Part shown: in pieces, positions 4,651 to 61,748 of the stretch
How the letters are laid out: each line of letters starts with the position of its first letter
Position numbering within the stretch: position 1 is the stretch's first letter
Assembly: GCA_039583875.1 (NCBI GenBank)
Contig: CM077159.1
Coordinates: forward strand, 4,715,371-4,779,370
Reading direction: 5' to 3'
Length of the DNA stretch: 64,000 nucleotides
Source: Platanthera guangdongensis
Lineage: Eukaryota; Streptophyta; Magnoliopsida; Asparagales; Orchidaceae
Notes under the pieces: generated by a model
Databases searched by the model: none
What the model was told of the DNA's origin: nothing
What the model saw: only the letters and a program-made list of their open reading frames with translations
Translations under genes and position numbers: made by a program

Positions 4651-4788
4651 TAGGAGAATTTTTCTCCGAGTGTAGGAGTTTTCCACTCCGAGTTTGTAGG
4701 AAGGTGTTTCTTCCGAGTTGTAGATCCAGTGGATTGGATTGAGATTGTAGGAACTTTGTTCCGAGGGTAGGATTGATTTTCAATCCGA
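4651..4788 (+). repeat. Array of six mini-hairpins in LTR B
   Basis: Six consecutive units of 20-26 nt, each GTAG, stem, 3-6 nt loop, complementary stem, then GAG. Stem pairs in order: GGAGAA/TTCTCC, GGAGT/ACTCC, GGAAG/CTTCC, ATCC/GGAT, GGAAC/GTTCC, GGATTG/CAATCC. Frames are constant and stems differ, which points to selection on RNA pairing. The position is about 430 nt after the TATA box. Confidence 0.85.
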
Positions 4789-5819: not shown

Positions 5820-5821
5820 AT

Positions 5822-17419: not shown

Positions 17420-17649
17420 TGTAGGATCCTTAGGAATCTGAGTTTGTAAGCTTGTAATTATAAAGGCTGAGTGTAGGGCTTGAGTGCTTGAGTGTAGGAG
17501 AGTTGTATCTCTGAGTGTAGGCCTATTGTGGCTGAGTGTAGGCCTTGGTGGCTGAGGGTAGGCCTTGGTGGCTGAGTGTAAGCTTTGTGAAGAAGCTGAG
17601 TTGTAGGGCCTTGGGCCTGAGCTGTAGGAACCTGTTTTTGGGTTCTGAG
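17420..17649 (+). repeat. Array of about ten mini-hairpins in the 5' LTR of A
   Basis: Units framed by TGTAGG and CTGAG. Stems include AGAG/CTCT, AGCTT/AAGCT, GGCC/GGCC and GAACC/GGTTC. Several units are partly decayed by C-to-T or G-to-A changes relative to the 3' LTR (for example GGAATC here against GGGATC at 28371). Confidence 0.8.
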
Positions 17650-17909
17650 ATAGTGGAGGAGTTTGGCTGAATCTAGTACACTGCTAGATAGGCGAAGGGG
17701 GAAAGTGGATGTACCCAAACCTTGGGGAACCACTATAAAACTGTGTGTCTACTGTGTGCTTGTGGAATTCTGTGATTGTTGATTGTGTGCTGTGATAAAG
17801 TAGATTTAATTCTGTGTTATAAGGTGAATTCTGCCTAAAAAGTTAAAAAGATTTAAGTCACCTATTCACACCCCCCCCCTCTAGGTGATTAGGTACAATA
17901 TCTTTCAAG

Positions 17910-17925
17910 TGGTATCAGAGCCAGG
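17910..17925 (+). other. Primer-binding site of element A
   Basis: TGGTATCAGAGCCAGG, two bases after the LTR end, complementary to initiator tRNA-Met. Confidence 0.92.
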
Positions 17926-18012
17926 TTCCTCAAAAAGAGACATAACTGTCTGAGTAGATCCTATTGGCAGATTCAGTGTAAGTAAATTACAGAATCAAGA
18001 AAATCAAGAACC

Positions 18013-20049
18013 ATGGGTTCCACTGAGAATCATAAGGAATTGGGATCCATGAAGCTACCCATATGTAGGAAAGAGATCTTTGGCATCTGGAAGGAAAGGG
18101 TGAGACTGTTTATGGAAGCCTCAGACCCTAGGATTTATATCACAGTGCAAGTAGGGCCATATGTTCCTATGAAGGTTTCAGTCTTAGTTGCAAATCAGAG
18201 AACACCTAAGGATTTCTCTGAAATGACAAAGGATGAAATTGTTCTAGCCACAATGGACAAAAGGGCTCAAAACATCATTGTGAGTGCCATAGATGATGCT
18301 ACTTTTCAGAATTTGATACACTGTAAGACAGCTAAAGAGATGTGGGATACTCTTATTATGTATATGGAGGGTTCTGAAGAAGTGAGGCAAGATAGGAAAT
18401 CCTTGCTAAAACAAGAATATGAAAGCTTTAGGAAAGGTAGATCTGATAGCATAACTGAATGCTATAAAAAGTTCTATAAGATTGTGAATGAGCTTATGTC
18501 CTATGGAAGAGAGTTCAAGAATTATGAGCTCAATGATAAGTTCTTAAGGTCCCATACAAAAGATTGGGACACCAAGATCTGTGCCATTAGGGAAATGGCA
18601 AAGTTGGCAGAAATTCCTCCACCAACACTATTTGGAAAACTGCTATCCTATGAGATGCAGTTGATGGTGAGGAAAGAAGAGGATAAATCAACAAGAAGTG
18701 AACATAAAGAAAGGACAGTGGCCTTTAAAACAGAAGCCCCCAGAAAGTACAGAAGTAAGTCACCAACTACACCAGCAAAAGTAGCTGAAACTGAGTCAGA
18801 TGAGTCAGCAAGCAGAAAATCTGAAAGCAGTGAAAGTGATGAGGACTTTGCTGCCTTCACAAGACATTTTCAGAAGTTCTTAAAGAAGAAACAGTGGAGG
18901 ACAAGGCCCTCTACTTCACAGGGTAAAGAAGACTATTATCAGAATAAAAAGTCTTCAAAGAAAGACATGAAAAAGACTAAGTCTAGCAAAGCAACTCTTT
19001 CAAAAATTGTATGCTATTGCTGTAATAGACAAGGACATGTTGTTGCAGACTGTCCAGAGAAAAGGAAGGAGTCAAATGATAAGAAAAAGACTCCATTCAA
19101 GGGCAAGAAGGAAAAGTCTTTTGTTGCCAAAAAGGATAAGAGCCTGTCAGACATTTCTTCATCAGAAACTGAGTCAGATGCTGAGGCATATATAGGGCTG
19201 TTTGCTGAAGAAGAAGAAGAAGAGTTCATTCAGATCATGAACTCTATATATGAACAAGAAGACAGTCAATGCCAAGGGGTAATGGCATTGACAGAAACTG
19301 ACAAAATCCTAGAGCAGCCAGGACCTAGTAAGGTACAAAATTGTTCTTTCAGTTCAATTTTTTGTGCTAGTTCAGAATCAGATTCATCATCATCAAGTGA
19401 TGAGAGTGCATCTGAGTCTGAAGAGGATATTAATCAGTTGATAGATGAATATAAAGTTCTGTTGTAAGCATTTAAGAAATGCAAATCCTTGGCCAAGAGT
19501 CAAGCTAAGGAGATTGTAAGTCTCAAAATGGCTGCAACTGATTATGAGAAGATGTTTGATCAAAAGCTAAATGAGATAGCCAGACTGAAGCACATAACTG
19601 TGATTCAGATGGGGACTATAACATATAATAATGATCAAATCAAGAGTCTGGAGATTAGTCTTCAGAAGGAGAGAGATCTAGTTGCTAGGTTTTCTAAACC
19701 TAAGTCAGTTCTACCTTTAATTAATGAATTTGTTCATCACAAAGGTAAAGCTGGACTGGGATTTACTAAACTTGCAAGGACTGTCAAGTCCAAGTCCAAG
19801 GGCAAAGCCCCAACTCTCAACAAGCCAGCTGTAGATAAAACAGCTAAGATTGTACCTAAGCAAAGGTACAATAAGTTTGAGTGTTGGTGTTGTGGCAAGG
19901 TAGACCACTTTACAATGGACTGTTGGCACAATGCTAGTGCCAAAGTGAGTAGCAAACTGCCTGTTGGAAAACCTGCAGGTAGCTTTGTTAGGAAGCAAAC
20001 TAACCAGTACCAAGGACCCAAGAATTCTTTGGGTTCTAAGGTTCACTAA
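18013..20049 (+). pseudogene. gag of element A (one internal stop)
   Basis: Particle-forming protein of about 678 codons from ATG 18013 (MGSTENHKELG). The N-terminal Copia gag domain includes AKEMWDTLIMYMEGS near residues 111-125. There are two CCHC zinc knuckles: CYCCNRQGHVVADC near residues 335-348 and CWCCGKVDHFTMDC near 627-640. A Ser/acidic-rich stretch and a coiled-coil segment lie between them. The only internal break is TAA at 19465. The terminal TAA at 20047 is followed in the same frame by pol after a TTTTGCAG acceptor-like run, as in C and D. Long gags with two knuckles fit the sirevirus lineage. Confidence 0.9.
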
Positions 20050-26836: not shown

Positions 26837-28852
26837 TGTTGGGTACATTGGTTCAAATGTACCTGATTTGAAGAAGCCTCACCCAACTCAATGATATACA
26901 TCAAAATGTATTTGATGAGTTTTGAGTTTACTTGTGCAGGTTAAGTATTTGCAGGAAAGATGGAAAAGTTTCTAAGTCCATGTGTCGACACCCAGAGGGA
27001 AAGTGTCGACACTTAAGAAGACTTGTGTCGACACCCAGGCAAGCAGTGTCGACACTTGGAGTCATTGTGTCGACATCAGGGATGCAGAGTCGACACCAGA
27101 CAGAAAGTGTCGACACAAGGAGCTGTGTCGACACTCAATGAAGAAAAATGCAGTGAAGCAGTATCGACACTTAACAGTTGTGTCAACACCCTGAGGAACT
27201 GTGTCTACATCAGAAAGTGTCGACACTTGGAGGCTGTGTCGACACTCAGCAAAAGTCAGCAGAGACTTAGTATAAGTGTCGACACCCAGAGCAATGTGTT
27301 GACACACAGCAGAAGAGTCAACACTTGAAGAAAGTGTCGACACAAGAAAGCATGTGTCGACACTCAGCTGAAGACTCAACACTTGAAGAAAGTGTCGACA
27401 CAAGGAGCTGTGTCGACACTTAGCAAAGTTCAAGAATATTCTAAGTACAAGTGTCGACACAAAGGAGATGTGTCGACACTCAGCAAAAGTCTCAACAGAA
27501 GAAGAATGTGTCGACACAAGGAGCTGTGTCGACACTCAGCAAGTATCAACACTGAAGACATGTGTCGACACCAAGAAAAAGTGTCGACACTTAACAAGTT
27601 CAACACATGAAGATGTGTCGACACAAAGGAGTTGTGTCGACACTTAGAAGAATACAACAAAGTGCTGAAAAAAACAAAGTGTTGTGTCGACACTTAATAT
27701 CAGTGTCGACACATGAAGAAGAAGCAGTGTCGAGATATAAAATCTACAACACAAGGAGTTGTGTCGACACCTTGTAGGCTAGTGTCGACACTTAGACAAC
27801 TTGTGTCGACACTTAGTCTATAAGTGTCGACACTTAAAGACAGACAGTCTCGACACTTTTAGACAGTTATAGAATTTTCAAGAACTGACTGGATGACTTG
27901 ACAGCTGCCATTCCAGCCGGTCTACTGCACCTGTCAGAGTTGTCAGAAATCAGTTATGAACCGGACCAGCCGGTTACTATGAAGAAGGCCTATAAATAGG
28001 CTTATACTGTCTACAGAAGAAGATTGATTAGAAGATCGACACATCAAGTAATACAAAGAAGATCTAGCTATCAAGTGAAGATTTAAGTAGTTGGAGAGAG
28101 AGAACTCCATCCAAGAAGACAGCCGTTGGAACCAGGCTGAGAAGAAGGGTTCAGATTTATTCTGAATCTTAAGTAGCAGACATCAAGGATCAACTGCAGA
28201 AGAGATCAATCTTATTGTGTTCTACTTTCAAGAAGCTTTGAAGAAAGACAAGTTAGGTTGATTTCAGGTGAGTTCTTCCAAGAACTCATCAAGAAACTCA
28301 CAACTCTTCTCTATTTTCACTGAGTTGTTGAGATTACATTTTGGTATTCATATTTTCTTGTAGGATCCTTAGGGATCTGAGTTTGTAAGCCTGTAATTAT
28401 AAAGGCTGAGTGTAGGGCTTGAGTGCCTGAGTGTAGGAGAGTTGTATCTCTGAGTGTAGGCCTGTTGTGGCTAAGTGTAGGCCTTGGTGGGTGAGTGTAG
28501 GCCTTGGTGGCTGAGTGTAAGCTTTGTGAAGAAGCTGAGTTGTAGGGCCTTGGGCCTGAGCTGTAGGAACCTATTTTGGGGTTCTGAGATAGTGAAGGAG
28601 TTTGGCTGAATCTAGTACACTGCTAGATATGCAAAGGGGGAAAGTGGATGTACCCAAACCTTGGGGAACCACTATAAAACTGTGTGTCTACTGTGTGGTT
28701 GTGGAATTCTGTGATTGTTGATTGTGTGCTGTGATAAAGTAGATTTAATTCTGTGTTATAAGGTGAATTCTGCCTAAAAAGTTAAAAAGATTTAAGTCAC
28801 CTATTAACCCCCCCCCCCCCCCCCTCTAGGTGATTAGGTACAATATCTTTCA
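26837..28852 (+). mobile_element. 3' LTR of element A
   Basis: 2,016 bp with the same parts as the 5' LTR: array 26980-27857, TATA 27991, hairpins 28359-28588, C-loop hairpin 28797-28833 with a longer C run. The hairpin stems are better preserved here than in the 5' copy. Confidence 0.95.
28359..28588 (+). repeat. Array of about ten mini-hairpins in the 3' LTR of A
   Basis: First units read GATCC/GGATC, AGCC/GGCT and GGC/GCC, all paired, while the 5' copies of these three units carry mismatches. Frames TGTAGG and CTGAG are kept. Confidence 0.8.
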
Positions 28853-28857
28853 CAACA

Positions 28858-29657
28858 CGAGAAGAACAAGAATATACTCAGTCAGAAAAACATAGACTGA
28901 CTGCAAGATTTCATACAGCATCAGAAAAGCTTCACACAAAAACTCATACTGAAGCTCATAGTGACAGGCAGTGATCTTTATTCATAAGAAGAAGAACAAT
29001 CATACTATATCAAGAGTCTTCTTCTTCAACATTCTCTCCAGAACTTCCAAGGACAACAGATATCAAGAATATCCTGCATCACTGCTTGTCCAGAACTCTG
29101 ATTGAAGACCTATCACCCTACAGCAAAGCTTCTAAATCTTCCTGAACCATTCACTATTTCAGGGGTAGCTTTCGCTAAACATCAATCCACAAGTTTTCTC
29201 AGTTTATTGAGAAAGAGAAGACAAAATCACTCTCTCACCCCCTCCTGTACAAAGGGTTGTCATCTCCCTTCAAAAGTGATTCCTGATTGCAAGTCTCCTT
29301 ACCAAAAAACTTGAGTTGATTTTTGGGGACCTGATCAAAACCCATTGGTGTCGGGCACCTGATCAAAACTCTGAGTGGATTCCTACCAAGGGTGGTAGAA
29401 GAGTGGACTACCCAGATTCGGGGAACCACTATAAATTTCTTGTGTCGTCTGGTTGCCTATATTTTTCTTTTTGTTTCTTGCTGTGTGGCTGTGATTAGGT
29501 TGATTATTATCTGCTTTCCAATTTTCTATTACTGCACCTTTCAGTTTACAGCAAAAGTTGTAACAGCACTTTTTGTTTTGGAACCTAACAAATTTTAAAG
29601 ATACTCTATTCACCCCCCCCCCCCTCTAGAGTATTATAGATCTGACCCTCACTTTCA
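28858..29657 (+). mobile_element. 3' LTR of element C, right part
   Basis: Continues the LTR interrupted at 15897. It is collinear with 5003-5819 and ends CTCACTTTCA. Element D sequence on the opposite strand starts at 29658. Confidence 0.92.
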
Positions 29658-31085
29658 AGTTCTTCTTCACTATCTTCATCGGCTTGTGGAGGAGGAGGTG
29701 GTATAACCTCTTGTGGAAGATTCAACTCACCCAATTTCTCACACAAGTGAGATACCTGCAAGATGCTATTGGTAGAAATTTCTTTCTCCTTATAAGACAT
29801 GTTAGTCTCATCAAAAGTTACATGTATTGATTCCTCAATTTTTAAAGAAGATTTATTGAACACCCTATAAGCTTTGCTGACTTGGGAATATCCTAAAAAA
29901 ATTCCCTCTTCAGCCTTAGCTTCAAACTTTCTAATATATTTCTTGTTATTATTGTGAATGTAATATATGCAACCAAATACTTTAAAATAGGTGATTTTAG
30001 GTTTCTTCCCTTTGAGCAATTCATAGGGAGTCCTATTCTTAAGTTTATGTATTAAACTCCTGTTCTGTACATAATTTACTGTGCTTACAGCCTCTGCCCA
30101 AAAGGATTGGGGAATGTAAGCATCTGCAAGTAATGTGCCTACAGCTTTAATTAAGGTTCTATTCTTCATTTCAACTATCCCATTTTGTTGAGGAGTTCTA
30201 GGAGCCGAGAAGCAATGCATGATACCTTCCTTCTCACAGAACTCATGCATAAGAAGAGACTCAAACTTTATACCATGATCACTTCTGATCAATGCAACAT
30301 GAGTAGAATACTCAATCTGTATGGTCCTGAGAAAATCTGTAAGAACTTTAAATCTATCTGACTTAGATCTCAGAAAAAACACCCAAGTGAATCTAGAGAA
30401 GTCATCTACAATAACTAGGGTATAAGATTTCCCTCCTGGGCTTTGTACAGCAATAGATACAAAAAGGTCCATGTGTAGCAAGTACAAGATCTTAGGTGAA
30501 TCACTCTTCTTAACTGATTTAAAACTAGATTTAGTTTGCTTGCCTAGTTGACAAGCCCAGCAGAGGCCTTCCTTATTGTAGGGACCAGAAGGCAAAACTC
30601 TCACAAGGTTGTCTTTAGATAGCCTAGCAATATTTTTCATATTAACATGTCCTACTCTTTTATGCCAAGGATCATTTTGATTGCTAACAATGTTAAGTAA
30701 ACAGATATCTGAATTTGTAGAATGAAAATCTACTATATATATGTTACCTTGTCTATTTCCAATTAAAACAGTTTGTTTTTCTTTATTAAAAATAATACAA
30801 GATGTTGAGTTAAAGTGTACTTGATAACCTTCATCACATATTTGACTTATGGAGATGAGGTTATGCTTGAGTCCACATACATATGCCATATTTTTGAAAG
30901 TGACTGCTCCAATCTTTACTTCTCCAAAGCCCTCTAACTAGCCCCAATTTGAATCACCAAAGATAACCTTTGGTCCAGCTTGGACTTGTAGTTATCTAAG
31001 TTGTCCTTGCTGTCAGTCATATGCTTGGAGCATCCACTGTCCAGATACCATTTTTGCTTAACAGCTGGACAGCGCTTTACCTGCA
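29658..31085 (-). pseudogene. pol of element D, protease and integrase only (truncated)
   Basis: Minus-strand frame beginning after the acceptor-like TTTGCAG at 31081. The protease motif KWYLDSGCSKHMT lies near 31050. A frame break follows around 30930-30890, after which the frame is open from 30889. Integrase zinc finger WHKRVGHVN...CWACQ; catalytic HMDLFVS (the usual GP after LF is VS), RSDHGIKFES (E of the usual GTEF is K) and NGIVEMKNR, where the catalytic E is kept but the flanking ER is EM. The frame ends where element C is inserted; reverse transcriptase and RNase H are absent from the window. Continuation into LTR C sequence past 29657 is an artefact. Confidence 0.85.
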
Positions 31086-33318: not shown

Positions 33319-34276
33319 TGAAAGTGAGGGTTAGACCTGAAATACTCTAGAGGGGGGTGAATAGAGTATCTTTAAAACTTTTAATGCTATTTACTGATTA
33401 ATAAAAACTACATAGTTGGAAAGCTATTTGACACCAGAATTTGGCTGAGAGTAAAAAGCAGTCCTAAGATAAATTATTCTACCACGGGCAAAGCAGAAGT
33501 TAAACTAACTATAAAATGCACAGCAAACCTAACTAGTACAGGCAGAGCAAGAACAAAAGAAAGAGGGCAACCAGACAACACAAGAATTTTATAGTGGATC
33601 CCTAACCTGGGTACATCCACTCTTCTACCACCCTGGTAGGAATCCACTAACAGGTTTTGATCAGGTGACTGCCACCAATGAGCTTTTGATCAGATGCTCA
33701 AAAACTAAACCAAGTCTTTTGATCAGGTGACTTGCAACCAAGGAATGACTTTTGAAGGGAGTTAAAGAACCCTTTGTACAGTGAGGGGATGAGAGAGTGA
33801 TGGTGTCTTCTCTTTCTCAAATACAACAGTTAACTGCTTTCTCTAGAGCCTTGCCAATTCTGTGCATCAAGATCGTCGAGCTGAGAATCTAACTTCGTCG
33901 ACTGGAGTTCAGTGAAATGTTTCTGGACTTAGAATATTGAGATGTTTTTGGACTAGAATATTGAAGTAGAGTATCCAGAAATCGTCGACCTGAGAACTAT
34001 GTTTATCAAGCTCAACTCAGAGAATTGTCTCTGAGTTCGTCGAGTTGAGCACAACTTTCATCGAGCTGAGTTCGATGAACGTCGAACTCATTTTCCTGAG
34101 TCTTTAAAATTTCTCTAAGTCTTGAGTCCTCTGCAATCTGTTGTTGGCTGATCCATACAGTGTTGACTCAAGGACATGGCCTATACTCTAGGACACAAAC
34201 ATGACCCTGGCTATACAGTTTGGGTCAAACATCCTAGTTTAGTGAACCTAGCTCAAATCCAACTAGTGATCCAACA
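33319..34276 (-). mobile_element. 5' LTR of element D (958 bp)
   Basis: Minus strand TGTTGGATCACTAGTTGG to CTCACTTTCA. It belongs to the same family as the C LTR but is about half the length: the central part of the C LTR is missing. A reduced TCGTCGA array lies at 33865-34090, and the C-loop hairpin has arms at 33342-33349 and 33362-33369. Confidence 0.9.
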
Positions 34277-34513: not shown

Positions 34514-37485
34514 TGTAACACCCTCGAATTTTTCGGCAATTATTTAAGTCCTCATTTGGCGTTACGTTGGCGCATTCCCGGCTCGTGCCGTTGTTAGAGT
34601 ACCTCGTTAGGTGTTCTTAGAGGTTATAGCCTGTTGTATGGTTTCCCCAGCTAGTCGGTGTCTGTTTTGGAGGCCCGGCTGAGCCTCTTAGGGAATCCCT
34701 GTACTTTGGCTTCCGGCGAGGTTTGCCCAAGTGTGTGGTCGTCGGAGGTTGTGTCCGACTTCGCCGATGTTTTCGTAGCCCGAGTGTTTAGCTACGGTGC
34801 GGATTTGTTCGGAATCCGAGAGCGTTAGTTTTCACGCCTTTTCGACGGTCGCTAGTTAGCAAGTCGTCATTTGTGCGAGCATATTTTTCATGTTTGCGCA
34901 TTTAGGGCATAGCGCGTGTTGTAGACATGCAAGGTTTTAATAATTTGCGGTTGCGTGTCTGCGATCATGTGTTAGTGTGTATGTATAAATATATATATAT
35001 GTGTGTTAGTGTGTATGTATAAATATATATATATGTGTGTTAGGGTGTATGTATAGGTATATATATATATGAGTGTTGGTGTGTATATATATAAATATAT
35101 GTATATAAATAAATAAGTATATATATATATAATCCGATTAGGTTTAGAAATCCCCCCCCCCCCAAAAAAAACCGTCGGCTGCCTGGAACCCGAGCGGAAG
35201 AAGGAAACCAGGCGGAAGTGCCCCGCAGCGCTCCGACCGCTCGTTCGCCGCCATTTTCAGCCCGGATCTCCAGTTCGAGGCCGGATTCGGACTCCTCTAG
35301 GCTAGATCTTCGTTCCGAGGTAACTATTTTGGGATTTCACCATCTCTTTTGCCCGATTGGTAGATTAGGTTGCGTTTTTTTCTTGGTTTGATGGTGTTGT
35401 TCTTCCCGGTTGGGTTGTCCATGATTTTTCCCCACTTTTGCTTGTGGCCGGCGGTTGAGAAGAGGGAGCTTGGCCGTTTTTTTGTTCTTCAAAGGCAACC
35501 AAGGCAAGTGCGCCCTTCGCCCTTGTCAAAATAAGTTCTATATAAAGCTCTTGAATTTTTTTTGTTGCTTGATTTCAGATTTCTGATTCCCTCCTAGGCT
35601 TTTGCTCACCCGAAATCCTTGATGCTAATCCTCACTTGTTGTATGTTGCGGTTTCACTGTTAGGAGTGCTGGAATGAATTTTATACCATATGATGTATTA
35701 GGCTAAATGCTGCATTTTTTTTGGACTCTGAGTCATGCCCAGATTTCGTTAAGAATTTTAACTTGTCCTTGTTCAAATGCCTGGTTTGCTTAAATTGCGA
35801 TCGGAAAGAGTTTAGCCTTAGAGTTCTTTTTGTTTGGCCTTGAACAATGCCCAAATCGAGTACATAGCTTGTAGTTTGCTCTTTTCAATAAATTGTCGTA
35901 GCTTTGGATCTTGCCCAAGTGAGTATAGTTTGAAGCCTCAAGTTAATCGTTTATGTTAGTACCAAATAAATCGTGCGTGGATGGGTAACGAATTAATTAT
36001 GTCTTTATATCAAATTAATTATGCATGTTTCGTTGTCTAACCGATTTCTTATGTGATGGCGACCAACTAATGGTACACGTTTAATTGAATGTCGTACTAC
36101 TTGCATAATTGCAGTTTCGTTCTCCTTTCATTTTTATTTGTGTCAAACTACTTGCTTGGACAACTCGACGGTTAGTCCGTTGGTTAGTATATTAGGATCT
36201 TAGGTGGGTTGCTCTAGAGTATTAGGGGTTCAGTGTGACTTCTTGGTGGTTCATGGAACCACTAGCAAGGGTTTTCCCGAGTCACTCAGTGCTGGAGTAG
36301 GATGTGATTTGAGGTGGGTCGGACCGATGCCGCCACCCTTGTTTTACTTCTTGTCTTATTAAGACAATGTGAGATGTTTGGTTGAATTGGACCGATGCCA
36401 CCACCACAGCACCTTGAGATGTTTAGGCCTGTTAGACGTGGTTGGACCGTTGACACCAGTCTAGGCCCTTATTTCTGATTTTTTGTCCATCTCCAGTACT
36501 AGGTGACTCTTTCTGCTCTAGCTTTATACCTGGATTTATTATTTTGCTAATCCTTCCTGCAGAGATTTGAGAGGCTTGACTTCACCCGTGCACTTGGTGC
36601 ACCCCTTTTTGCTCACTCACGGCGAGTATTATTCCTTCGTTTGCTTACTTTAGCCCCCACCTGGTTCACTTTTTCCTTACGCTATTGTTTCATTTTTCTA
36701 TTGATATATATATATATATATATTGCTTTGCTGAGGTGTTCCCTTCTTTGAATGCCTCAGGTTCAGGATTATAGCCGACTGTGCGGCTAGGATTCTTCTG
36801 GAGTTTGCTGGTGTTATAGCTGCTGCTGAGTCTCTTTTCCTCACTCCTGGGAGGTAGTTTCTTTAGACTTATAGTACAGACATGCCTACTCACCAGTGGG
36901 TTCGTGTCAGTTGTTGGCGCCCACTGGTGGTTTCTCTTTTAGATACTTTGTACCTTGCTTATACTGCTAGATTTTTCCTGTTTTGGAGTTTATTAAACTT
37001 GCTTCCGGGATGATTTATGTTAGGTTGCTAGTTACTTTAAAACCTATAAAGAAAATAATTATTATATCAAAAACATAGACAACATGTTTTTCTTTCTAAA
37101 AAGCTTAATCACTATTTTCAAACCACGTAAAAAGGGTATTTCCTATATATAATATATAAATCAAATCTAGGGTCTTGCATAGCCTTAGGCGTCCCCTGGG
37201 GACGCTTAAGCATTCTCTTAGGGTGTTAAAAAAATGAATAAAGTATTTTCCGCTACGTATAAGTATAATTTTGAAGGGTGGACTAGTTGATCCACGAAGC
37301 CGAGGGATACGGCCTCAAAAATATAATTGCTTTCCACATCATTAAAGCTTTTGAACTTTCATAGTCTTAGTAGTTGGTGGTTGCCTGAGCGTCGACAGTT
37401 ATCCCCTGTCTGACGTGGCATCACATCGCGCGTTTTCTTCTACTCTGATACTCCTTAAATTTTGGAGAAAATGCGGGTTGTGACA
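34514..37485 (+). mobile_element. 5' LTR of element J
   Basis: 2,972 bp. The first 660 bp (to 35173) have no counterpart in the 3' copy. An AT-rich tandem of about four 34-bp units lies at 34968-35125, followed by a C/A run near 35152. From 35174 on it matches 41879-44186 with few changes. I see no open frame of interest. Confidence 0.93.
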
Positions 37486-37487
37486 GT

Positions 37488-37502
37488 TGGTATCAGGGGG
37501 AG
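37488..37502 (+). other. Primer-binding site of element J
   Basis: TGGTATCAGGGGGAG, two bases after the LTR; the first ten bases match the initiator tRNA-Met complement, the rest diverges. Confidence 0.7.
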
Positions 37503-37644
37503 GTTGCTTGACAATTTGTCGGGCAACCTTTCCTTTTAGGTATTAGAAGTTTAGCATCATGTCATACACACACCGATATGTCATCAGCACGTCTTGGCTG
37601 AAGCACGAACACTACACTCATAGCATAACATGAAGTATACGGGG

Positions 37645-37820
37645 CATATTATGTAGTATGGGATGCATAATATGTGTTCGTATATGGATCCACCATAGGA
37701 GGCCACATGTGAGGGTTATGTAGTATGGGATGCATAACCTCACCACATGAATGCGACTAGCACGTTTTCTTTTTCGTTGCATGAAAATGTTATGTAGTAT
37801 GGGATGCATAACATTTTCAT
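37645..37820 (+). repeat. Three leader hairpins with one constant loop (J)
   Basis: The core TATGTAGTATGGGATGCATA occurs at about 37650, 37717 and 37790. Outer arms differ but pair each time: CATATTATG/CATAATATG (37645-37674), GTGAGGGTTATG/CATAACCTCAC (37705-37748) and the 14-bp ATGAAAATGTTATG/CATAACATTTTCAT (37781-37820). They lie in the untranslated leader between PBS and gag. Confidence 0.85.
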
Positions 37821-38053
37821 GTGTACGCCGCTCATAACATGCATTAGGGCCTTTTTAGAATGCATAGCACAATCATGCATAGCATAACATTGCATAAGCA
37901 CAACGTGCCAAGCTAAAGACTTGCAGGATGACATATGTACACACATGGTTTTGAGTCAAAAAGATTATAAATTCATGCATTCTCGATTTAGGCACAAGAG
38001 TTAGTGTGATGGTGGTGAACCATCTTAGGTTAATCACGACATTATTTCCCCTG

Positions 38054-38058
<5 letters not shown>

Positions 38059-38113
<55 letters not shown>
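38059..38113. repeat. (AT)n microsatellite in the J leader
   Basis: About 55 bp of pure AT. Confidence 0.95.
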
Positions 38114-38114
<1 letters not shown>

Positions 38115-38226
38115 CCCCAGAGCAAGTTGGCAGTGAAAGCAAGTACTTATATAGGTTTGTCTGTACCTGTTGTTTTGTCCTAGTAGTTGACCTAGGTTCT
38201 GATGTTTGTTTGTTGATCTTTTTAGG

Positions 38227-39460
38227 ATGGCGCCTAAGCATAGAGTGGCGAGATCGACTCCCCAATCTCAGGGCGGGTCTTCTGGTACTCAAAGCGGTAC
38301 AGTTATGGAAAGTCTGAGGCAGAGCAATGAGGCTCTATCGAGGCAGATGGTGGACGTTCAGTCTCAGATCCAGTCCCTGTTATCTGTGGTGGCAGGACTA
38401 GCCCCGAGAGCGCAGGACCCTGCTGCGGGTTTAGCTGTTCCCGCACCTCCTGCACCCCCAGCCCCTTTGGTGCCTCCAGTGGTGGTGCCCCCGGATATGG
38501 CTTTCATCACTCATTTCCAGTGACTGCGACCCCCTACCTACGATGGTAAGGCGGACTTCATGATATTGGATGACTGGTTGATTACCATAGAAGAAATATT
38601 TCACTACTCTGGAGTATCTGAGGATCAGAAGGTGATGCTGGCCGCCTATCAGCTGAAGGGGTTAGCGAAGAGCTGGTGGATGAGGGAGAAGGAGGGAATG
38701 GCAGGAGGAAGCACTTGGGCTTCCTTCAAGGAGATCTTGATGCGGAAATTTCTACCGTCAGTGGAGCGAGACAGGCTGATGAATGATTTCTTGCATCTGA
38801 AGCAGAGGCAGCTCTCAGTCAGCGAGTATGAGATTGAGTTCAGCAAACTCAGTCGCTTTGCCCCTAGTTTGGTGAGCTCAGAGGAGGATAGAGCAAAGCG
38901 TTTCCTCGGTGGCCTGCGGAGCGATGTACAGCAGCTAGCGGTGGCTCTTGGAGCGGTGAGTTATGCTGGGGCAGTGGAGGCCGCTTTGAAGGTAGAGGCC
39001 ATCGAAAACGCGAAGCATAGAGGACAGCAGGCGAGGAATGAAAAGAGGAAAGCTGTTGAAGCGAAGAGTCGCCTTGTGCCCGATGCTCATTCGGGGAAGA
39101 GGAGCAAGGAGGTGTGTAGTTTTTGTGGCCGGTCGGGCCATCCTGCTGAGAGATGTTTCAAGAGGGCTGCGGCGCAGAAGGAGCATGTGCATGCTATTCA
39201 GGGTGCTCCCAGGCAGAATGTGGTGTGTACTTTGTGCAAGAAAGAGGGCCACGATGTTGCTCGTTGCTGGTTGAAGGACAAGGTCTGCTATCAGTGCGGA
39301 CAGAAAGGTCACACCAAGGCCCGATGCCCGCAGCTCCAGTCTGTGCACCGACCAGTTCCTCTTTAGGCGTTGCCACCGCCTCAGTCTATGGATAGAGGCA
39401 AAGGGAAGCTGAACGTGATATCCGCAGCGGAGGCTCAAACTTCGACGCAAGTCATTTCAG
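38227..39460 (+). pseudogene. gag of element J (Gypsy), two stops
   Basis: Capsid and nucleocapsid protein from ATG 38227 (MAPKHRVARSTPQ). A Pro-rich N-terminus is followed by a retrotransposon gag domain (YDGKADFMILDDWLITIEEI to ERDRLMNDFLHLKQ) and three CCHC knuckles: CSFCGRSGHPAERC, CTLCKKEGHDVARC and CYQCGQKGHTKARC (near 39117-39335). Stops: TGA 38521 (fits former CGA) and TAG 39364 (fits former CAG); the frame continues past both to 39460. There the codon GGT can be split at a GT donor. Without splicing, translation stops at TAG 39475; with splicing it runs on into protease. Confidence 0.88.
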
Positions 39461-39556
39461 GTAAACCTTCTCGCTAGTCTTTTACTTCTTTTGCAGATTA
39501 GTCTGGCTTTTGTTTTCTTTATTGACTGTGCAATTTCCCCGTTGATATTTATATAG
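39461..39556 (+). other. Intron-like 96-nt segment at the gag-pol junction of J
   Basis: Starts CAG|GTAAAC at 39461 and ends TTTATATAG|GG at 39556 after a T-rich tract. It contains an in-frame TAG (39475) soon after the donor. Removing it joins gag to protease in frame within one Gly codon, giving the ISGSF-type join usual in plant Gypsy polyproteins. Confidence 0.65.
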
Positions 39557-41858
39557 GGAGTTTTAAGGTAAAGAACCGCTGGGCGCGCGTTCTCTTTGAC
39601 TCAGGTGCTACCCACTCATTTGTGGCTAGGGCCTTTGTAGAGCGGTGTCAGCGGGTTCTTGATCGTATCGGTGATGCCTTTTGTGTCAAATTCCCCTCAG
39701 GTGATTCCGTGATATCAGATCAGGGCATTCTGGATTGTCCTATTATGTTGGGAGATTTCCCAGCCAAGGCATATCTGAAGGTTATAGATTTGGAAGATTT
39801 CGACGTCATCCTGGGTATGGATTGGTTGTCCAGATATGATGCAGTGATCCAGTGCAGGGGTAAGCGCTTGGATTTCAAGAAGGACAACGGTCAGCCTGGG
39901 AGTATTTATGGCGATCTACGCCAGGCCTCTCCGGCGATTTCTGCGGTATGTGCTCAGAGGTTATTCAGTGCTGATTGTTTTGCTTGCTTAGTCTAGGTGT
40001 TGGGGACTGTTAGCAGTATGCCGCTGTTGGATGAGATTCCTGTTGTCCGTGAGTTTTCGGATGTGTTTCCTAGCGACCTTCCCGGTCTTCCCCCTGCCAG
40101 AGATGTCGAGTTCGTGATTGATTTGGAGCCGGGTACGCGCCCTATTGCTAAGTCGCCGTACCGGATGGCCCCGCGAGAGCTGGAGGAGCTGCGTACCCAG
40201 CTGGATGAGTTATTGGAGAAGGGTTTCATAAGGCAGAGCTCGTCGCCCTAGGGTGCACCCGTTCTTTTTGTGAAGAAGAAAGATGGTTCGATGCGCCTTT
40301 GCATCGACTATAGGGAGTTGAACAAAGTCACCATCAAGAACAGGTACCCCCTGCCCAGAATCGACGACTTATTCGATCAGTTACGTGGCAGTTCCGTGTT
40401 CTCCAAGATTGACCTTCGATCAGGATATCATCAGCTCAGGATCCGGGAGTCGGACATTCCGCGGACGGCTTTTCGATCGAGGCATGGACATTTCGAATTC
40501 CTAGTTATGTCTTTTGGGTTGACCAACGCGCCATCAGCATTTATGGACATGATGAACCGGGTGTTCAAGGATTTTCTGGACAAGTTTATGGTCGTATTCA
40601 TAGATGACGTTCTGATTTACTCACGGAATGCTGCGGAGCATGATCAGCACTTGCGGTTGGTGTTATCTGCCTTGAGAGATCATCAGTTGTACGCCAAGTT
40701 GAGCAAATGTGAGTTCTGGTTACCTCAGGTGTCCTTCCTAGGTCATGTGGTGAACAAGGATGCAATTTCAGTGGACCCGGTGAAGATTTCTGCAGTGATG
40801 GATTGGCATAGGCCGAGCACACCCAAGGAGATTAGGAGCTTCTTGGGGTTGGCCGGCTATTATAGATGGTTTGTTGAGGGCTTTTCTACCTTGGCAGCCC
40901 CCTTAACTAAGCTGACGCAGAAGCATGCAGCGTTCATCTGGAGCGAGCAGTGCGAGGAGGCCTTTCTGGAGCTAAAGAGGAGATTGTGCACTGCTCCTAT
41001 TCTGACATTGCCTACGGAGGGCAAGCACTATGATGTTTATGTGGATGCATCGCATGTTGGGCTCGGAGGCGTGTTGATGCAAGAGGGGAAGGTGATCGTG
41101 TATGGGTCGCGGCAGTTGAAAACTCATGAGCGGAATTACCCTACGCATGACCTCGAGTTTGCGGCGGTGATTTTTGCATTGAAGCTGTGGAGGCATCTAC
41201 TCTTTGGGGCTCAGTGCAAGATTTTCACAGATCATAAGAGCCTGAAGTACGTGTTTACTCAGAAGGAGCTGAATCTGCGCCAGCGACGGTGGCTAGAGTT
41301 CGTGGCCGATTATGACGTGGAGATCCAGTACCATCCAGGCAAGGCCAATGTGGTGGCCGACACCCTGAGCCGCAAGACAGGGAAGATCTTCAACCTCACG
41401 GCGGACCGTTTAGTGGAAGAGTTCTTGTTGATGGACATCTCGGTGGGAGGCTGTGATTTGCAAAGCAGTTTGGCAGTGGCAGAGCCATCTTGGATTTCGC
41501 TCACCAGGTTGCACCAGAAGGATGATCCAGATTTGTTACACCTGTACCTCAGGGCTGAGAGAGGGGAGTTGCCGGATTTCTCCATCGATGATTCGGGTAC
41601 CTTAAAGTACCGCGGCAGGTTTTGCATCCCCGTGGTTGGAGACGTCAGGAGTATGGTATGCAAAGAGGCTCATGGATCCAGTGTTGCCTACCACCCAGGA
41701 TCCACGAAGATGTATCATGATTTGAAGCAGATCTCCTGGTGGCATGGTATGAAAGGGGATATAGCTCGGTATGTTTCTGAATGTTACACTTGCAAGCGGG
41801 TGAAGGCCGATCATGGGAGGCCTGGTGGAAAGTTGACTCCTTTGGAAATCCCGACTTG
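39557..41858 (+). pseudogene. pol of element J (Gypsy), truncated in integrase
   Basis: Aspartic protease (VLFDSGATHSFV near 39592, ILGMDWL near 39810); reverse transcriptase ([10 protein letters not shown] near 40300, [11 protein letters not shown] near 40590); RNase H ([25 protein letters not shown]); integrase HHCC zinc finger ([20 protein letters not shown] near 41785). The protein should continue with the integrase catalytic core and C-terminus, but after LEIPTW the sequence jumps to a 20-bp filler and then the inside of the LTR. Stops: TAG 39994 and TAG 40249 (at the conserved Trp of SPWGAP). The frame is otherwise open, so the element was recently intact up to the deletion. Confidence 0.93.
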
Positions 41859-41878
41859 GCCGGATACGGGGTTGTACA
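41859..41878 (-). other. 20-bp filler resembling a G-type LTR terminus
   Basis: On the minus strand from 41878: TGTACAACCCCGTATCCGGC, one base different from the block that ends at 284 and close to the G LTR start. It sits exactly between the broken integrase and the truncated 3' LTR of J. Confidence 0.5.
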
Positions 41879-44186
41879 GTCGGCTGCCTGGAACCCGAGC
41901 GGAAGAAGGAAACCAGGCGGAAGTGCCCCGCAGCGCTCCGACCCCTCGTTCGCCGCCATTTTCAGCCCGGATCTCCAGTTCGAGGCCGGATTCGTACTCC
42001 TCTAGGCAAGATCTTCGTTCCGAGGTAACTATTTTGGGATTTCACCATCTCTTTTGCCCGATTGGTAGATTAGGTTGCGTTTTTTGTTTCTTGGTTTGAT
42101 GGTGTTGTTCTTCCCGGTTGGGTTGTCCAGGATTTTTCCCCACTTTTGCTTGTGGCTGGCGGTTGAGAAGAGGGAGCTTGGCCGTTTTTTTTGTTCTTCA
42201 AAGGCAACCAAGGCAAGTGCGCCCTTCGCCCTTGTCAAAATAAGTTCTATATAAAGCTCTTGAATTTTTTTTGTTGCTTGATTTCAGATTTCCGATTCCC
42301 TCCTAGGCTTTTGCTCACCTGAAATCCTTGATGCTAATCCTCACTTGTTGTATGTTGCAGTTTCACGGTTAGGAGTGTTGGAATGAATTTTATACCATAT
42401 GATGTATTAGGCTAAATGCTGCATTTTTTTGGACTCTGAGTCATGCCCGGATTTCGTTAAGGATTTTAACTTGTCCTTGTTCAAATGCCTGGTTTGCTTA
42501 AATTGCGATCGGAAAGAGTTTAGCCTTAGAGCTCCTTTTGTTTTGCCTTGAACAATGCCCAAATCGAGTACATAGCTTGTAGTTTGCTCTTTTCAATAAA
42601 TGTCGTAGCTTTGGATCTTGCCCAAGTGAGTATAGTTCCAAGCCTCGAGTTAATCGTTTATGTTAGTACCAAATAAATCGTGCGCGGATGGGTAACGAAT
42701 TAATTATGTCTTTATATCAAATTAATTATGCCTGTTTCGTTGTCTAACTGATTTCTTATGTGATGGCGACCAACTAATGGTACACATTTAATTGAATGTC
42801 GTACTACTTGCATAATTGCAGTTTCGTTCTGCTTTCATTTTTATTTGTGTCAAACTACTTGCTTGGACAACTCGACGGTTAGTCCGTTGGTTGGTATATT
42901 AGGCTCTTAGGTGGGTTGCTCTAGAGTGTTAGGGGTTCAGTGTGACTTCTTGGTGGCTCATGGAACCACTATCAAGGGTTTTCCCGAGTCACTCAGTGCT
43001 GGAGTAGGATGTGATTTGAGGTGGGTCGGACCGATGCCGCCAACCTTGTTTTACTTCTTGTCTTATTAAGACAATGTAAGCTGTTTGGTTGAGTTGGACC
43101 GATGCCACCACCACAGCACCTTGAGATGTTTAGGCATGTTAGACGTGGTTGGACCGTTGCCACCAGTCTAGGCCCTTATTTCTGATTTTTTGTCCATCTC
43201 CAGTACTAGGTGACTCTTTCTTCTCTAGCTTTATACCTGGATTTATTATTTTGCTAATCCTTCCTGCAGAGATTTGAGAGGCTTGACCTCACTCGTGCAC
43301 TTGGTGCACCCCTTTTTGCTCACACACGGCGATTATTATTCCTTCGTTTGCTTACTTTAGCCCCCACCTGGTTCACTTTTTCCTTATGCTATTGTTTCAT
43401 TTTTCTATTGATATATATATATATTGCTTTGTTGAGGTGTTCTCTTCTTTGAATGCCTCAGGTTCAGGATTATAGCCGACTGTGCGGCTAGGGTTCTTCT
43501 GGAGTTTGCTAGTGTTATAACTGCTGCTGAGTCTCTTTTCCTCACTCCTGCGAGGTAGTTTCTTTAGACTTGTAGTACAGACATGCCTACTCACCAGTGG
43601 GTTCGTGTCAGTTGTTGGCGCCCACTGGTGGTTTCTCTTTTAGATACTTTGTACCTTGCTTATACTGCTAGATTTTTCCTATTTTGGAGTTTATTAAACT
43701 TGCTTCCGGGATGATTTATGTTAGGTTGCTAGTTACTTTAAAACCTATAAAGAAAATAATTACTATATCAAAAACATAGACAACATGTTTTTCTTTCTAA
43801 AAAGCATAATCACTATTTTCAAACCACGTAAAAAGGGTATTTCCTATATATAATATATAAATCAAATCTAGGGTCTTGCATAGCCTTAGGCGTCCCCTGG
43901 GGACGCTTAAGCATTCTCTTAGGGTGTTAAAAAAATGAATAAAGTATTTTCCGCTACGTATAAGTATAATTTTGAAGGGTGGACTAGTTGATCCACGAAG
44001 CCGATGGATACGGCCTCAAAAATATAATTGCTTTCCATATCATTAAAGCTTTTGAACTTTCATAGTCTTAGTAGTTGGTGGTTGCCTGAGCGTCGACAGT
44101 GATCCCCTGTCCGACGTGGCATCACAACGCACGTTTTCTTCTACTCTGCTACTCCTTAAATTTTGGAGAAAATGCGGGTTGTGACA
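41879..44186 (+). mobile_element. 3' LTR of element J, 5'-truncated
   Basis: Starts at GTCGGCTGCCTGG, equivalent to 35174 of the 5' LTR, and ends TTGTGACA before the TSD. The first 660 bp of the LTR and the end of pol are deleted. Confidence 0.93.
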
Positions 44187-44509
44187 TTGGAGGTCTTGCA
44201 GTGCACCAGATTCTGGAATGTAGAATCATCTACTGCACTAGCAATGATATTTTGAGCTCTCTTGTACATGGAGGCAAGGAGGAGCTCATCCTTGTTCATT
44301 TCTTCATATGATTTAAGAGTCTGGATGTTGGCTTCCAGAACTGAGATCTTCATGGGGATGAAGGGTCCCTCATGGACTGTGATGTATATCCTAGGGTCAG
44401 TAGCTTCCATGAACATCCTGACCCTTTCCTTCCAAAGCTCAAACCCTTCCTTTCTGCAAATTGGCGACTTCATGGCTTCTAATTCCTTGTATTTTACACC
44501 AGACCTCAT
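44187..44509 (-). pseudogene. gag of element F, first fragment
   Basis: Minus-strand gag starting MRSGVKYKELEAMKSPICRK at 44509, similar to gag of A (PICRKE, LWKERVRMFMEATDPRIYITV). It runs open to VHCKTS at 44187, where J is inserted. Continuation into the J LTR is an artefact. Confidence 0.88.
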
Positions 44510-44567
44510 TACTTATCTTTTAGCTAACCTTGGAGGTATACTCAGATTGTTAAATCCTTTTTAGTAA

Positions 44568-44583
44568 CCTCCCTCTGATACCA
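44568..44583 (-). other. Primer-binding site of element F
   Basis: Minus strand TGGTATCAGAGGGAGG, two bases after the LTR end at 44586. Confidence 0.88.
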
Positions 44584-44896
44584 CTTGAACGTTATTTAAT
44601 TCAAGGTTAGCTAATCACCTAGAGGGGGGTGAATAGGTCATTGAGATTTTAATAAATCTTTTGATGTATTCAAGTTGTACTAACTAGAGCTTGTCCTTAA
44701 AGCCTGCAATCATAAAGAAAAACATGCACATACAGCAAACACAAGAATTTATATTGGTTCCCCAATTGGGTACATCCACTTTCCCTCCCACCTATCCAAC
44801 TTACTTGTTGGACTCATTGCAAACTTCTTCACTATGCTTCTCAGAGCTTAAACCTCAAGCCCACAACCTTACAAACATATTCTTCATAGAATCCAA

Positions 44897-45396
44897 CTCA
44901 GAACCATACAGGTTCTAACCTCAGAGCTCTGCAGAACTCCTACAGCTTAGTGATCCAGAGATCATCTACCTCAGCCTTATTTCTAAGGCCTACACTCAGG
45001 CTCTTCAGCCCTACAGCTTCAAGCACACGGCCCTACTCTCAGAGTGCTGCAACACTCCTACAACTCAGTACCCTTTCAGGTACCTACAGCTCAGCCTCCT
45101 CCAAGGCCTACAATCTCAGTGATAATCTTGTCACCTACAGCTCAGTGATTGTTCAGTCACCTACCTCAGGCACAAGACCCTACACTCAGGCTGGAAGGAT
45201 AGTCCTACCTCAGATCCACACTTGGATCCTACCTCAAAGAGCAGCACTCTCCCACCTCAGGCACTTAAGCCCTACAACTCAGATCCTCACTTGGATCCAG
45301 TGCCACAACAGGGCACCTACCTCAGTGACAAATTTATCACCTACCTCAGGCACAAAGTGCCCTACACTCAGATTAAGGAAACCTAAATCCTATAGG
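44897..45396 (-). repeat. Array of about 21 mini-hairpins in LTR F
   Basis: On the plus strand each unit reads CTCAG, stem, loop, stem, CCTAC. Stem pairs in order include GAACC/GGTTC, TGATC/GATCA, GCCTT/AAGGC, GAGTG/CACTC, GTACC/GGTAC, GCCT/AGGC, GTGA/TCAC (three units), GATCC/GGATC (twice), AGAG/CTCT, GTGCC/GGCAC, GGCAC/GTGCC and GATT/AATC. About 15 of 21 units have a clean stem of four or more pairs. The position is about 370 nt after the TATA box. Confidence 0.9.
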
Positions 45397-45766
45397 AAAA
45401 AAATAAGAATGAAGAAAAAAAAATAATTGACTTAGATAAATAACTCTGAGTCAACTTTGCTGGACTAAGTAGATTTCAGTCCAGCTCACTTGTTATAAAA
45501 GGAATCATCCTTCTTCTACTGCTATCACTTTTTACTGTTGTACTGATGAGCAGCTTCCACCTTGCTGATGAGATGAACCAGCTTTACTATTCTGTAGAGA
45601 ACAACCTTACTGAGCTTGAAGAGCTTCAGCTATCATTCTTTGCCTTCAGGCTATCTTGGTTAGACTTCAGCTTTTAAGCTTGATCGGAAGTAAAATGTCC
45701 AACCGCCTCTATTAATTTCTCATTCTGTTTGTTTGATTCGTTAACCTTAATCCCTTTTTTATTTCC

Positions 45767-45777
45767 CCTTTTATATA
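45767..45777 (-). promoter_or_regulatory. TATA box of LTR F
   Basis: Minus strand TATATAAAAGG, between the U3 arrays and the hairpin array. Confidence 0.6.
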
Positions 45778-46029
45778 TGTTGATTTGAATCAACGGCACC
45801 ATAGTATGTGGGCCCAGTAAGGATTGGTGAGCGCCAACTCCATAAGAAACGGACAAAACATCTTTCGACACTGTAGAAGCATTCCCACAATGGCTTCTTG
45901 TAATTTTGACTTTGATGACATCAGCAGTGGTCATATGTATCTGGACTTAGAAAATACTCCAGAATCCCATCAAGCATTGAGTGGTGTTAAGACACTCAAC
46001 GCCATCAGCCTTGGCTCTCAGCGCTTCTA

Positions 46030-46870
46030 GACTTAAGAAATTTTCCTGGATTTGTCTCAGCGGTTTTGTCTCAGCGGTCTCAGCGGTTTTTCATTATCAG
46101 CTGAGACAAGCCTTTATCTCAGCACTTTCTTCTAATCTGTCGTCTCAGCTATTTTTGCACATAACTGTCTCAGCGGTTTTGTCTCGGCAGTTTTGTCTCA
46201 GTGGTCTCTGCGGTTATTCATTTATCAGCTGAGACAAACCTTTGTTTCAGCGCTTTCTTCTTATCTACTGTCTCAGCGATTTTTGCACTTCATTGTCATA
46301 GTGATTTTCTTCTTAATTGTCTCTGTGCTTCCTTCTTCATTAGAAGCGTTGAGTGAACCTGCTTCACTCAACGCTTCTAGACTTAGAAAAAATTCCAGCT
46401 AATTTATCTCTGATGTCTCAGCCGTCTCAGCGCCATCTTCTCATCTGTCTCAGCTGTCTCAGCGGTCTCAACACCATCTTCTCAATTATCTTCAGATGTC
46501 TCAACGCTATCTTCACAGCTATCTCAGCTGTCTCAGCGATCTCAACGCGTTCTTCTCAGCGGTCTCAGCGCTTTTGCCTTAGATAGATTTTCTGGCTTTA
46601 GCTTGACAAGATTTGAGCTGAGCTCGACAAACCGCAAACTGAGCTCGACGAACTTTGATCTTCTCAGCGGCCTCAGCGCTTTTTGCCTTAGTCAATTTTT
46701 CTCTTACTTTTGTTTGATCAGCGTTGTGCTGATCTCGATGAACTGTAACCTGAGCTCGACAAACTTCGAGTTGAGTTTGATGAATTTTGAATCCTGAGTT
46801 TTTAAGCTTAACTTAAGGAATGCTGAGTTGAGCTCGACGATCAGCGAGTTGAGTTCGATGAAATCTGAGC
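46030..46870. repeat. U3 motif arrays of LTR F
   Basis: Two motif classes: GTCTCAGCGGT and shortened CTCAGCG, 25 or more copies at 46055-46690, and a smaller set of GAGCTCGACGAAC-type motifs at 46615-46880 resembling the C/D family motif. Confidence 0.8.
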
Positions 46871-60922: not shown

Positions 60923-61034
60923 CACAAGTAATACTCCAATATAACCGTTATGGGTCCCACCTCAAGAAACCCTAACCCCAGTTCAGAACAGCGCCAGCGG
61001 CAGAATCCGGTCCAGCGGTTTCCAAAAAAATCGC

Positions 61035-61420
61035 CCAAGTCAAAATCGGCGAGAATCGAAGGTGATTCTCGTCGAATCGGCGAGAATCAAAGGTAATTCT
61101 CGTCGATTCGGCGAGAATCAAAGATTATTCTCGGCGATGTTGACTTGATTGCACACTCTGATATAGCCGGGTCGAGACGGCGAGAATCAGCCAGTGACTC
61201 TCGACGATTCGGCGAGAATCACTAGTGATTCTCGCCGAATCGGTGAGAATCACTTGGTGATTCTCGTCGATTCTTACTTAGAATCAGAGTTGCTCGCTTT
61301 GAAGTAGCTGGATCGAGTCGGCGAGAATTAGCCAATGATTCTCGACGATTCGGCGAGAATCACTAGTGATTCTCGCCGAATCGGCGAGAATCACTTGGCG
61401 ATTCTCGTCGATTTACACTT
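61035..61420. repeat. GATTCTCG(C/T)CGA motif array in LTR E
   Basis: Copies of ATTCGGCGAGAATC facing GATTCTCGTCGATTC, giving long inverted repeats (for example around 61211-61245 and 61333-61388) in about eight pairs. This is the private motif of this family. Confidence 0.88.
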
Positions 61421-61748
61421 AGACGATTTTTCGTCTTTCCGCCCATGAGGTGCTCCTTGACCCATCCTTGCTCCTTGTCTGCTCTTGCCTTAACACAGCC
61501 CTGTACTTGAAAATAAGTACACTCCAATAGAGAGAGTACACGTAGGCCAACACACTGATCTGCTCAACGAGGGATTACGTCGTGCAGACCCGTGTATATT
61601 GACCTACTGCACCCTGACATTGGTGTGCACTTAGCGTGGAATAACTGCAAGCACAACTTGAGATATTTTGTCAAATACATTGTCTATTTACCTTAGCTTG
61701 TTCAGGGGCTTCTTCAAATCAGGTTCGTTGTGCATACAATACCCAACA

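Follow-up and report, generated by a model that had tools for sequence, protein, structure and literature searches.

What does a tandem series of small hairpins in a long terminal repeat (LTR) do, when the paired letters differ from unit to unit and the pairing is retained? The window (the whole 64,000-nucleotide stretch of Platanthera guangdongensis DNA that was analyzed) raises this question on the minus strand of one LTR, here LTR F. A preliminary description counted about 21 tandem mini-hairpins there and placed them downstream of a TATA box, within the transcript. The array is real and lies where it was placed, but its limits are slightly wider than described, with the first core base at 45390, the last at 44843, and about 22 units between them. 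LTR F has its 3′ end at 44586 and reaches up to about 47020, its 5′ end being approximate. In order along the minus strand, the features of this region are:

45771..45777, minus strand: TATA box of LTR F (from sequence), about 380 nt upstream of the array
44843..45390, minus strand: mini-hairpin array of LTR F, about 22 units, frame (U)GUAGG...CUGAG (sequence, folding, pairing test)
44794..44813, minus strand: final hairpin ahead of the motif, GUCCAAC..GUUGGAU (sequence, folding); families G/A and K have different stems there
44751..44780, minus strand: conserved motif hairpin AGUGG-AUGUA-CCCAA..UUGGG-GAA-CCAAU, containing the shared upstream AUG; its 3′ arm is altered in the window copy
44611..44630, minus strand: a feature described in PMC2829016 (from sequence)
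44573..44585, minus strand: AGTGG spacer and primer binding site TATCAGAG, adjoining the end of LTR F (from sequence)

Most F units consist of (U)GUAG, a stem of 3–8 pairs including the frame, a short loop, and C-U-GAG, and the 22 unit cores of the window copy fold with 3–8 pairs each. The arms vary between units yet match inside each unit. For the 20 units recovered by an automatic parser, on which the pairing test rests, 82 of 100 own-arm comparisons over five outer positions paired, against a permuted mean of 50.3 (sd 4.4), and none of 20,000 permutations reached this value. Comparison of folding with dinucleotide shuffles, the check suggested by the preliminary description, gave an excess in six 100-nt windows of the F array, although a moderate one (z -0.5 to -2.8, with pairs limited to 30 nt); for F, arm permutation is the stronger test. 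Some units of the window F copy are damaged, GGACTATCCTTCCAGCCT among them, as they would be in a dead copy. An Rfam search of positions 44500–46000, with E up to 1, returned 0 matches.

Arrays with a constant frame and variable stems are found in F and in two further LTR families within the window, G and A:

17424..17646, plus strand: array in the 5′ LTR of element G, copy G1 (sequence, pairing test)
28363..28585, plus strand: array in the 3′ LTR of element G, copy G2 (sequence, pairing test)
4653..4786, plus strand: 6-unit array of LTR A, most units having the frame GUAG...CCGAG (sequence, pairing test)

Own-arm pairing was 33/40 in G1 and in G2 (9 of 20,000 permutations as high) and 28/30 in LTR A (27 of 20,000); most frames of LTR A close with CCGAG rather than CUGAG. 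When distinct units were pooled within families, Watson–Crick pairs at the four inner positions numbered 970/1272 in F (392 when permuted), 266/364 in G (111), and 88/132 in A (39), counts in which the parser may have taken in some chance matches outside arrays. Near-identical adjacent units were seen in the arrays. A fourth family in the genome, K (for example locus L020), carries hairpins in the same place with a different frame, such as UUGUAA..CG. In all four families, F, G, A, and K, the position of the array ahead of the motif is constant, and one extra hairpin lies between the two, with the stem UCUAG..CUAGA in G and A and other stems in F and K; the motif that follows is AGUGG-AUGUA-CCCAA..UUGGG-GAA-CCACU or a near variant.

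Array windows of F, G, A, and K showed an excess of local folding, despite the different frame of K. Of the two 100-nt windows nearest upstream of the motif, the better one gave z values of -3.2 (G1), -3.5 (LTR A), -4.4 (L020), -2.7 (L101), and -4.0 (L028). Some windows outside the arrays fold well too (G1 -3.7, L101 -2.8, L015 -4.6). In the same test, family E gave no sense-strand excess (z -1.5 or weaker, with -0.8 and -0.3 on the same better-window measure). Family E LTRs lie at 4962–5820, 28819–29658, and 33543–33824, one of them adjoining element G, and carry a motif, GTGGACTACCC, that resembles the GTGGATGTACCC hairpin.

Across the 4.25 Gb of genome searched, we counted 48,247 exact occurrences of the motif GGGAAAGTGGATGTACCCAA..GGGGAACCA (reversed control, 0) and 323,552 matches to the unit pattern CTGAG..TGTAGG..CTGAG, which misses the frames of A and K (reversed control, 690). 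The 100 places listed among the unit-pattern matches held 73 different strings and 72 different cores. These 72 cores came from the first 7.3 Mb of one contig and were selected by their frame only; Watson–Crick pairs occupied 180 of their 216 inner positions, against a permuted mean of 70. A search for the motif in viral contigs found no match.

We classify the carriers as Sirevirus-like Ty1/copia elements. Profile searches in element G matched Retrotran_gag_2 (3.1e-18) and RVT_2 (4.1e-67), and its gag gave a weak zinc-knuckle match (16.6 bits, cut-off 20.8). The 5′ LTR junction of G, CA-AGTGG-TATCAGAGC, fits the Sirevirus form (CA, ATTGG or AGTGG, TATCAGAGC); at the F junction the last base of the primer binding site differs from the TATCAGAGC form. 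The Sirevirus C-rich signal is present in element G, and the Sirevirus feature described in PMC2829016 was found by sequence in F, G, and A. A search for polypurine tracts (AGGGGGAGAT, up to one mismatch) found one exact AGGGGGAG adjoining LTR A (2980) and AGGGGGATAT adjoining the 3′ LTR of G (26827), the Sirevirus feature being several AGGGGGAG tracts before the 3′ LTR. Above the TATA boxes lie three types of U3 repeat, at 16038–16900 in G (GTGTCGACAC), 3311–4110 in A (ACTCGAGTAG), and 46048–46570 in F (GCTGAGAC). Those of G and A are palindromic (GTGTCGACAC in G and ACTCGAGT in A) and have the core TCGA; the CGG-CCG core of Sirevirus palindromes is absent from them. Yet that core is not universal, Tnd-1 being an exception given in PMC2829016, and we therefore use the term Sirevirus-like.

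Three other features of the window were observed. Between the reverse transcriptase and the 3′ LTR of element G (23875–26547) lie two long ORFs of 383 and 499 aa, possibly the envelope-like region of Sireviruses; the shorter has a weak Pfam match to Transposase_32, below the cut-off, and the longer has no Pfam match. A pair of LTRs that are 97% identical (35171–37490 and 41876–44190) delimits another retroelement (35171–44190), which by our reading is nested in the gag region of F, where gag-like sequence seems to resume near 34510. Finally, positions 61026–61431 form an imperfect inverted repeat of about 400 bases with 75% identity to its own reverse complement.

The preliminary description held that the stems vary freely in sequence but keep their pairing, and pointed to genome-wide copies of F as the place to look for compensation. 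Among 40 F-family copies (the window copy among them), 4603 of 5157 cells were unchanged. One-sided changes led to G.T in 149 cells, to A.C in 133, to other mismatches in 204, and to another Watson–Crick pair in 46, and double changes gave 15 double Watson–Crick cells and 7 other double cells. One-sided, mostly uncompensated changes dominate, and we rejected covariation inside the F family; the claim of kept pairing thus fails among these 40 copies, although it holds between units. We read the uncompensated changes as decay after insertion. Because F copies decay as dead copies would, the comparison was moved to lineages and internal branches, and it is between element lineages that covariation should be read, as dead copies within a single family degrade with no compensating changes.

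Between lineages the result was different. Nine sequences of F lineages had 700 paired cells out of 740 and changes on both sides at 12 of 85 pairs. On a tree of the G group (25 sequences, 54 pairs) built on the sequence above the array, internal branches carried 11 double-sided and 10 one-sided pair-keeping changes versus 8 breaks, and terminal branches carried 1, 10, and 18, respectively. Slid controls gave both-side changes at 0–4 pairs in the F lineages and 0–3 double-sided changes on the internal branches of G, comparisons in which the actual structures, having been taken from one aligned sequence, are favored over the controls. Averaged over 20 reconstructions, the G values (double-sided, one-sided kept, broken) were 9.2, 12.5, and 7.2 on internal branches and 1.0, 11.2, and 18.0 on terminal branches. 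The tree tests of K (15 sequences; 7.3 kept and 2.0 broken on internal branches, 5.7 and 14.5 on terminal branches, 0 double-sided changes) and A (6 sequences; 2.1 and 1.0, then 3.0 and 4.0, with almost no double-sided changes) are based on small numbers of events, and on internal branches some K slid controls, too, retain more pairs than they lose. Fisher tests of kept versus broken pairs on internal versus terminal branches, calculated on rounded counts with branches treated as independent, gave p 0.017 for G and p 0.0002 for G, K, and A together.

Rates of change differed among the parts of a unit. On the internal branches of G, changes per site were 0.07 in the frame GAG, 0.17 in GTA, 0.26 at the closing pair, 0.66 in the stem, 1.43 in the loop, and 1.47 in the stretch above the array; on terminal branches, the values were 0.07, 0.23, 0.11, 0.37, 0.74, and 0.59. 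The frame thus appears to be held while stems move with compensation and loops are free. The frame is least changed on terminal branches also, and therefore part of its contrast with the loop may stem from unit choice and alignment. We conclude, from the sequences compared, that stem sequence has turned over from lineage to lineage within the G and F groups with pairing kept, and that selection on leader structure is well supported. Paired letters that are free, with pairing and linkers kept, suggest an undescribed RNA structure that the element needs.

Whether the paired molecule is RNA or single-stranded DNA was approached through strand tests. A bias of G.T over A.C mismatches was found in F (p 0.025), G (p 0.009), and the shared units of G (p 0.029), and was absent in A (p 0.18), the shared units of F (p 0.25), and the 72-core sample (7 versus 6). 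Folding z-scores of the arrays were alike in sense and antisense. The mismatch bias is weak where present, and pairing in RNA rather than in single-stranded DNA has only indirect support.

The AUG content of the leader bears on where the array acts. In copy G1 the relevant features are:

17704..17738, plus strand: motif hairpin of G1 with a 9-codon upstream ORF, AUG at 17709, stop at 17736–17738
18013..19467, plus strand: gag-like ORF of element G (from sequence), whose AUG is the second after the expected start site in G1

The G1 leader (17078–18013, about 930 nt) has a single AUG in 929 nt, in the motif; above the motif there are 0, versus 9.4 expected from dinucleotides, and 274 nt separate the stop of the 9-codon ORF from the gag ACCAUGG. 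Counting leader AUGs in 12 distinct loci (13 of 61 rows kept, G1 of the window being the same locus as L042), we found exactly one in 4 of the 12 and 2–4 in the others. Sense-strand AUGs per kb were then determined from the expected start site to the array, in the array, and from the motif to the primer site, and compared with sequence above the TATA box: G had 2.3, 0.7, and 2.6 versus 17.8; A had 1.8, 0, and 0 (the last from 1 copy) versus 13.7; K had 0.7, 1.3, and 6.0 (the last from 3 copies) versus 5.9; and F had 5.0, 7.5, and 6.4 versus 25.7. In the first two stretches CAT, the reverse complement, occurred per kb at 9.2 and 1.8 in A, 13.9 and 3.9 in F, 11.7 and 5.7 in G, and 5.0 and 5.9 in K, so that in the F array AUG is commoner than CAT. 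A shortage of leader AUGs is evident in three families, G, K, and A, but weak in F. Because the leader is poor in AUG, the array is likely transcribed and in the part of the leader scanned by ribosomes, which agrees with its earlier placement in the transcript, less strongly for F than for the other families.

An AUG downstream of the array is shared by families F, G, K, and A. The ORF that it opens has 9 codons in 51 of 52 G copies, 8 in 21 of 22 F copies, and 28 in 11 of 16 K copies, and is variable among 6 A copies, counting only copies with an exact motif match (52/54 in G, 22/44 in F, 16/16 in K, 6/6 in A). Counts upstream of the array also required that a TATA box lie inside fixed limits, which left 52 copies in G, 16 in F, 9 in K, and 6 in A. 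The window copies G1 and F are the same loci as L042 and L001, respectively; both entries of each pair went into the AUG and upstream-ORF tallies, and both entries of the G1 pair into the leader count. We rejected the idea that the upstream ORF encodes a conserved peptide, because ORF length and frame vary between families. When whole leaders were folded, frame bases had a paired probability of 0.53–0.56 compared with an average of 0.58–0.63, an exposure little above average, and several hairpins formed weakly.

Our preferred reading, to which we assign a probability of roughly 0.4, is that about 5 to 25 small hairpins in tandem would make the long 5′ leader of a Sirevirus-like genomic RNA a repeated binding platform, with Gag as the likeliest partner. 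The stems would serve as spacers, keeping a repeated word (GAG..GUAG) single-stranded between helices, and the leader would thereby present many equal binding sites in series. The likeliest reader would be the element's own Gag, with many weak sites marking the RNA for packaging and reverse transcription; we favor Gag by analogy, because HIV nucleocapsid sites are described in PMC3362945 as G-rich single strands bordered by stable helices, and because the gag of G gives a zinc-knuckle match, if a weak one. Stems would drift because pairing alone is needed. New units were probably born by tandem duplication, as adjacent units are near-identical, and would then diverge with compensation. Several observations count against this reading: the low exposure of linkers in the predicted whole-leader fold does not suit a simple binding word, the hairpins of K do without the frame, tolerance of G.U over A.C is weak, and windows outside the arrays also fold well. 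We are a little more hesitant about a broader proposal, namely that multiple hairpins with constant linkers and drifting stems, placed in the AUG-poor leader of an abundant group of plant retrotransposons, form a new type of RNA architecture and would act as a repeated protein platform settling whether the genomic RNA is translated or packaged.

The main rival, which we consider possible but rather unlikely, is control of translation, with the array as a 5′ enhancer of a short upstream ORF that permits reinitiation: the hairpins would refold behind the scanning 40S subunit and hold initiation factors, and scanning would resume past the motif ORF to gag. The near absence of AUGs from the leaders of G, K, and A, the shared AUG after the array, the almost constant ORF lengths in G and F, and the single leader AUG and 274-nt interval of G1 all fit, as does yeast GCN4, where progressively folding elements precede a reinitiation-permissive upstream ORF (PMC3131280). 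Against it, the ORF mostly has 28 codons in K and is variable in A, up to about 25 hairpins look like more than necessary, and the constancy of the AUG is partly built in because copies were counted only where a pattern containing that AUG matched. We judge it improbable that there is no selection on pairing at all and that a mutational process, such as reverse-transcriptase template switching in a hairpin, rewrites one arm from the other. Such rewriting would account for stems that are mostly exact Watson–Crick, for G.T being barely favored over A.C in the 72-core sample, and for double-sided changes as common as one-sided pair-keeping ones (11 and 10) on the internal branches of G; against it speak stems that end at the frame, the least changing part, an array that holds one place ahead of the motif in four families, and a closing pair that, rather than becoming perfect, stays G.T in 307/318 F and 91/91 G units (the parsing frame allows only C or T there).

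Two further readings are less probable still. The repeated UGUA words and the A-rich motif could set a poly(A) site, with hairpins juxtaposing the signals of 3′-end processing or transcription. UGUA does stand in many linkers and AUAAA follows the motif, but many F units have GGUAGG without UGUA, and in a published model of Sire LTRs (PMC3601003) the poly(A) site falls close to the TATA box; we give this reading a small chance. A search of three ranges for A15 tracts 8–98 nt downstream of the motif found none, which is uninformative on the poly(A) site. Small RNAs come into question in two forms. Dicer substrates are far longer than stems of 3–8 bp, and on this ground we set aside the suggestion of the preliminary description that the array is a decoy for small-RNA silencing. 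The same shortness speaks against a recognition of the array, as palindromic repeats of the Sirevirus regulatory region, by host small-RNA pathways, which we regard as very improbable. Sirevirus LTRs are known for palindromic repeats (PMC2829016), and small RNAs map to Sirevirus LTR palindromes in maize (PMC10760457); however, the known palindromes have one sequence in common and are located upstream of the TATA box, whereas the array lies downstream and its stems differ, and palindromic U3 repeats exist here as a separate feature.

How does the array compare with known systems? Palindromes in maize Sirevirus LTRs were reportedly treated by Bousios et al. in 2016. The packaging leaders of retroviruses and retrotransposons contain a few distinct hairpins. 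The nearest likeness in kind of element, and in repeated palindromic units within the LTR, is to the repeated motifs of Sirevirus LTRs (Bousios et al. 2010, PMC2829016), which lie upstream of the TATA box, have one palindrome per element with a mostly CGG-CCG core, and are read as promoter elements; the array lies downstream of the TATA box, its stems differ, and the frame alone is common to its units. With packaging leaders (PMC3362945) it shares a structured 5′ leader and G-containing single strands between helices, and differs in repeating a single design about 5 to 25 times in tandem. The GCN4 uORF1 elements (PMC3131280) are likewise folded and directly precede a short upstream ORF, but they belong to a yeast cellular mRNA, number four, and form no tandem array. 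The ribosome-shunt leaders of plant pararetroviruses (PMC5902531) are similar in their length, short upstream ORF, structure, and Met-tRNA primer site; they have one large stem-loop with the short ORF ahead of it, whereas here many small hairpins are followed by the short ORF. No shunt-type short ORF was found in G1, where the stretch from the expected start site down to the motif is free of AUG, and folded pieces of the leader show small hairpins. A literature search, with most subscription papers outside it, found no description of such an array.

To our knowledge, the choice of plant copia RNAs for packaging and the translation of their long leaders are poorly understood. The array would offer a compact, testable candidate signal for packaging or leader translation that a single genome contains in hundreds of thousands of copies, and its many unit variants would amount to a natural covariation experiment in which the requirements for structure, frame, and loop may be separated.
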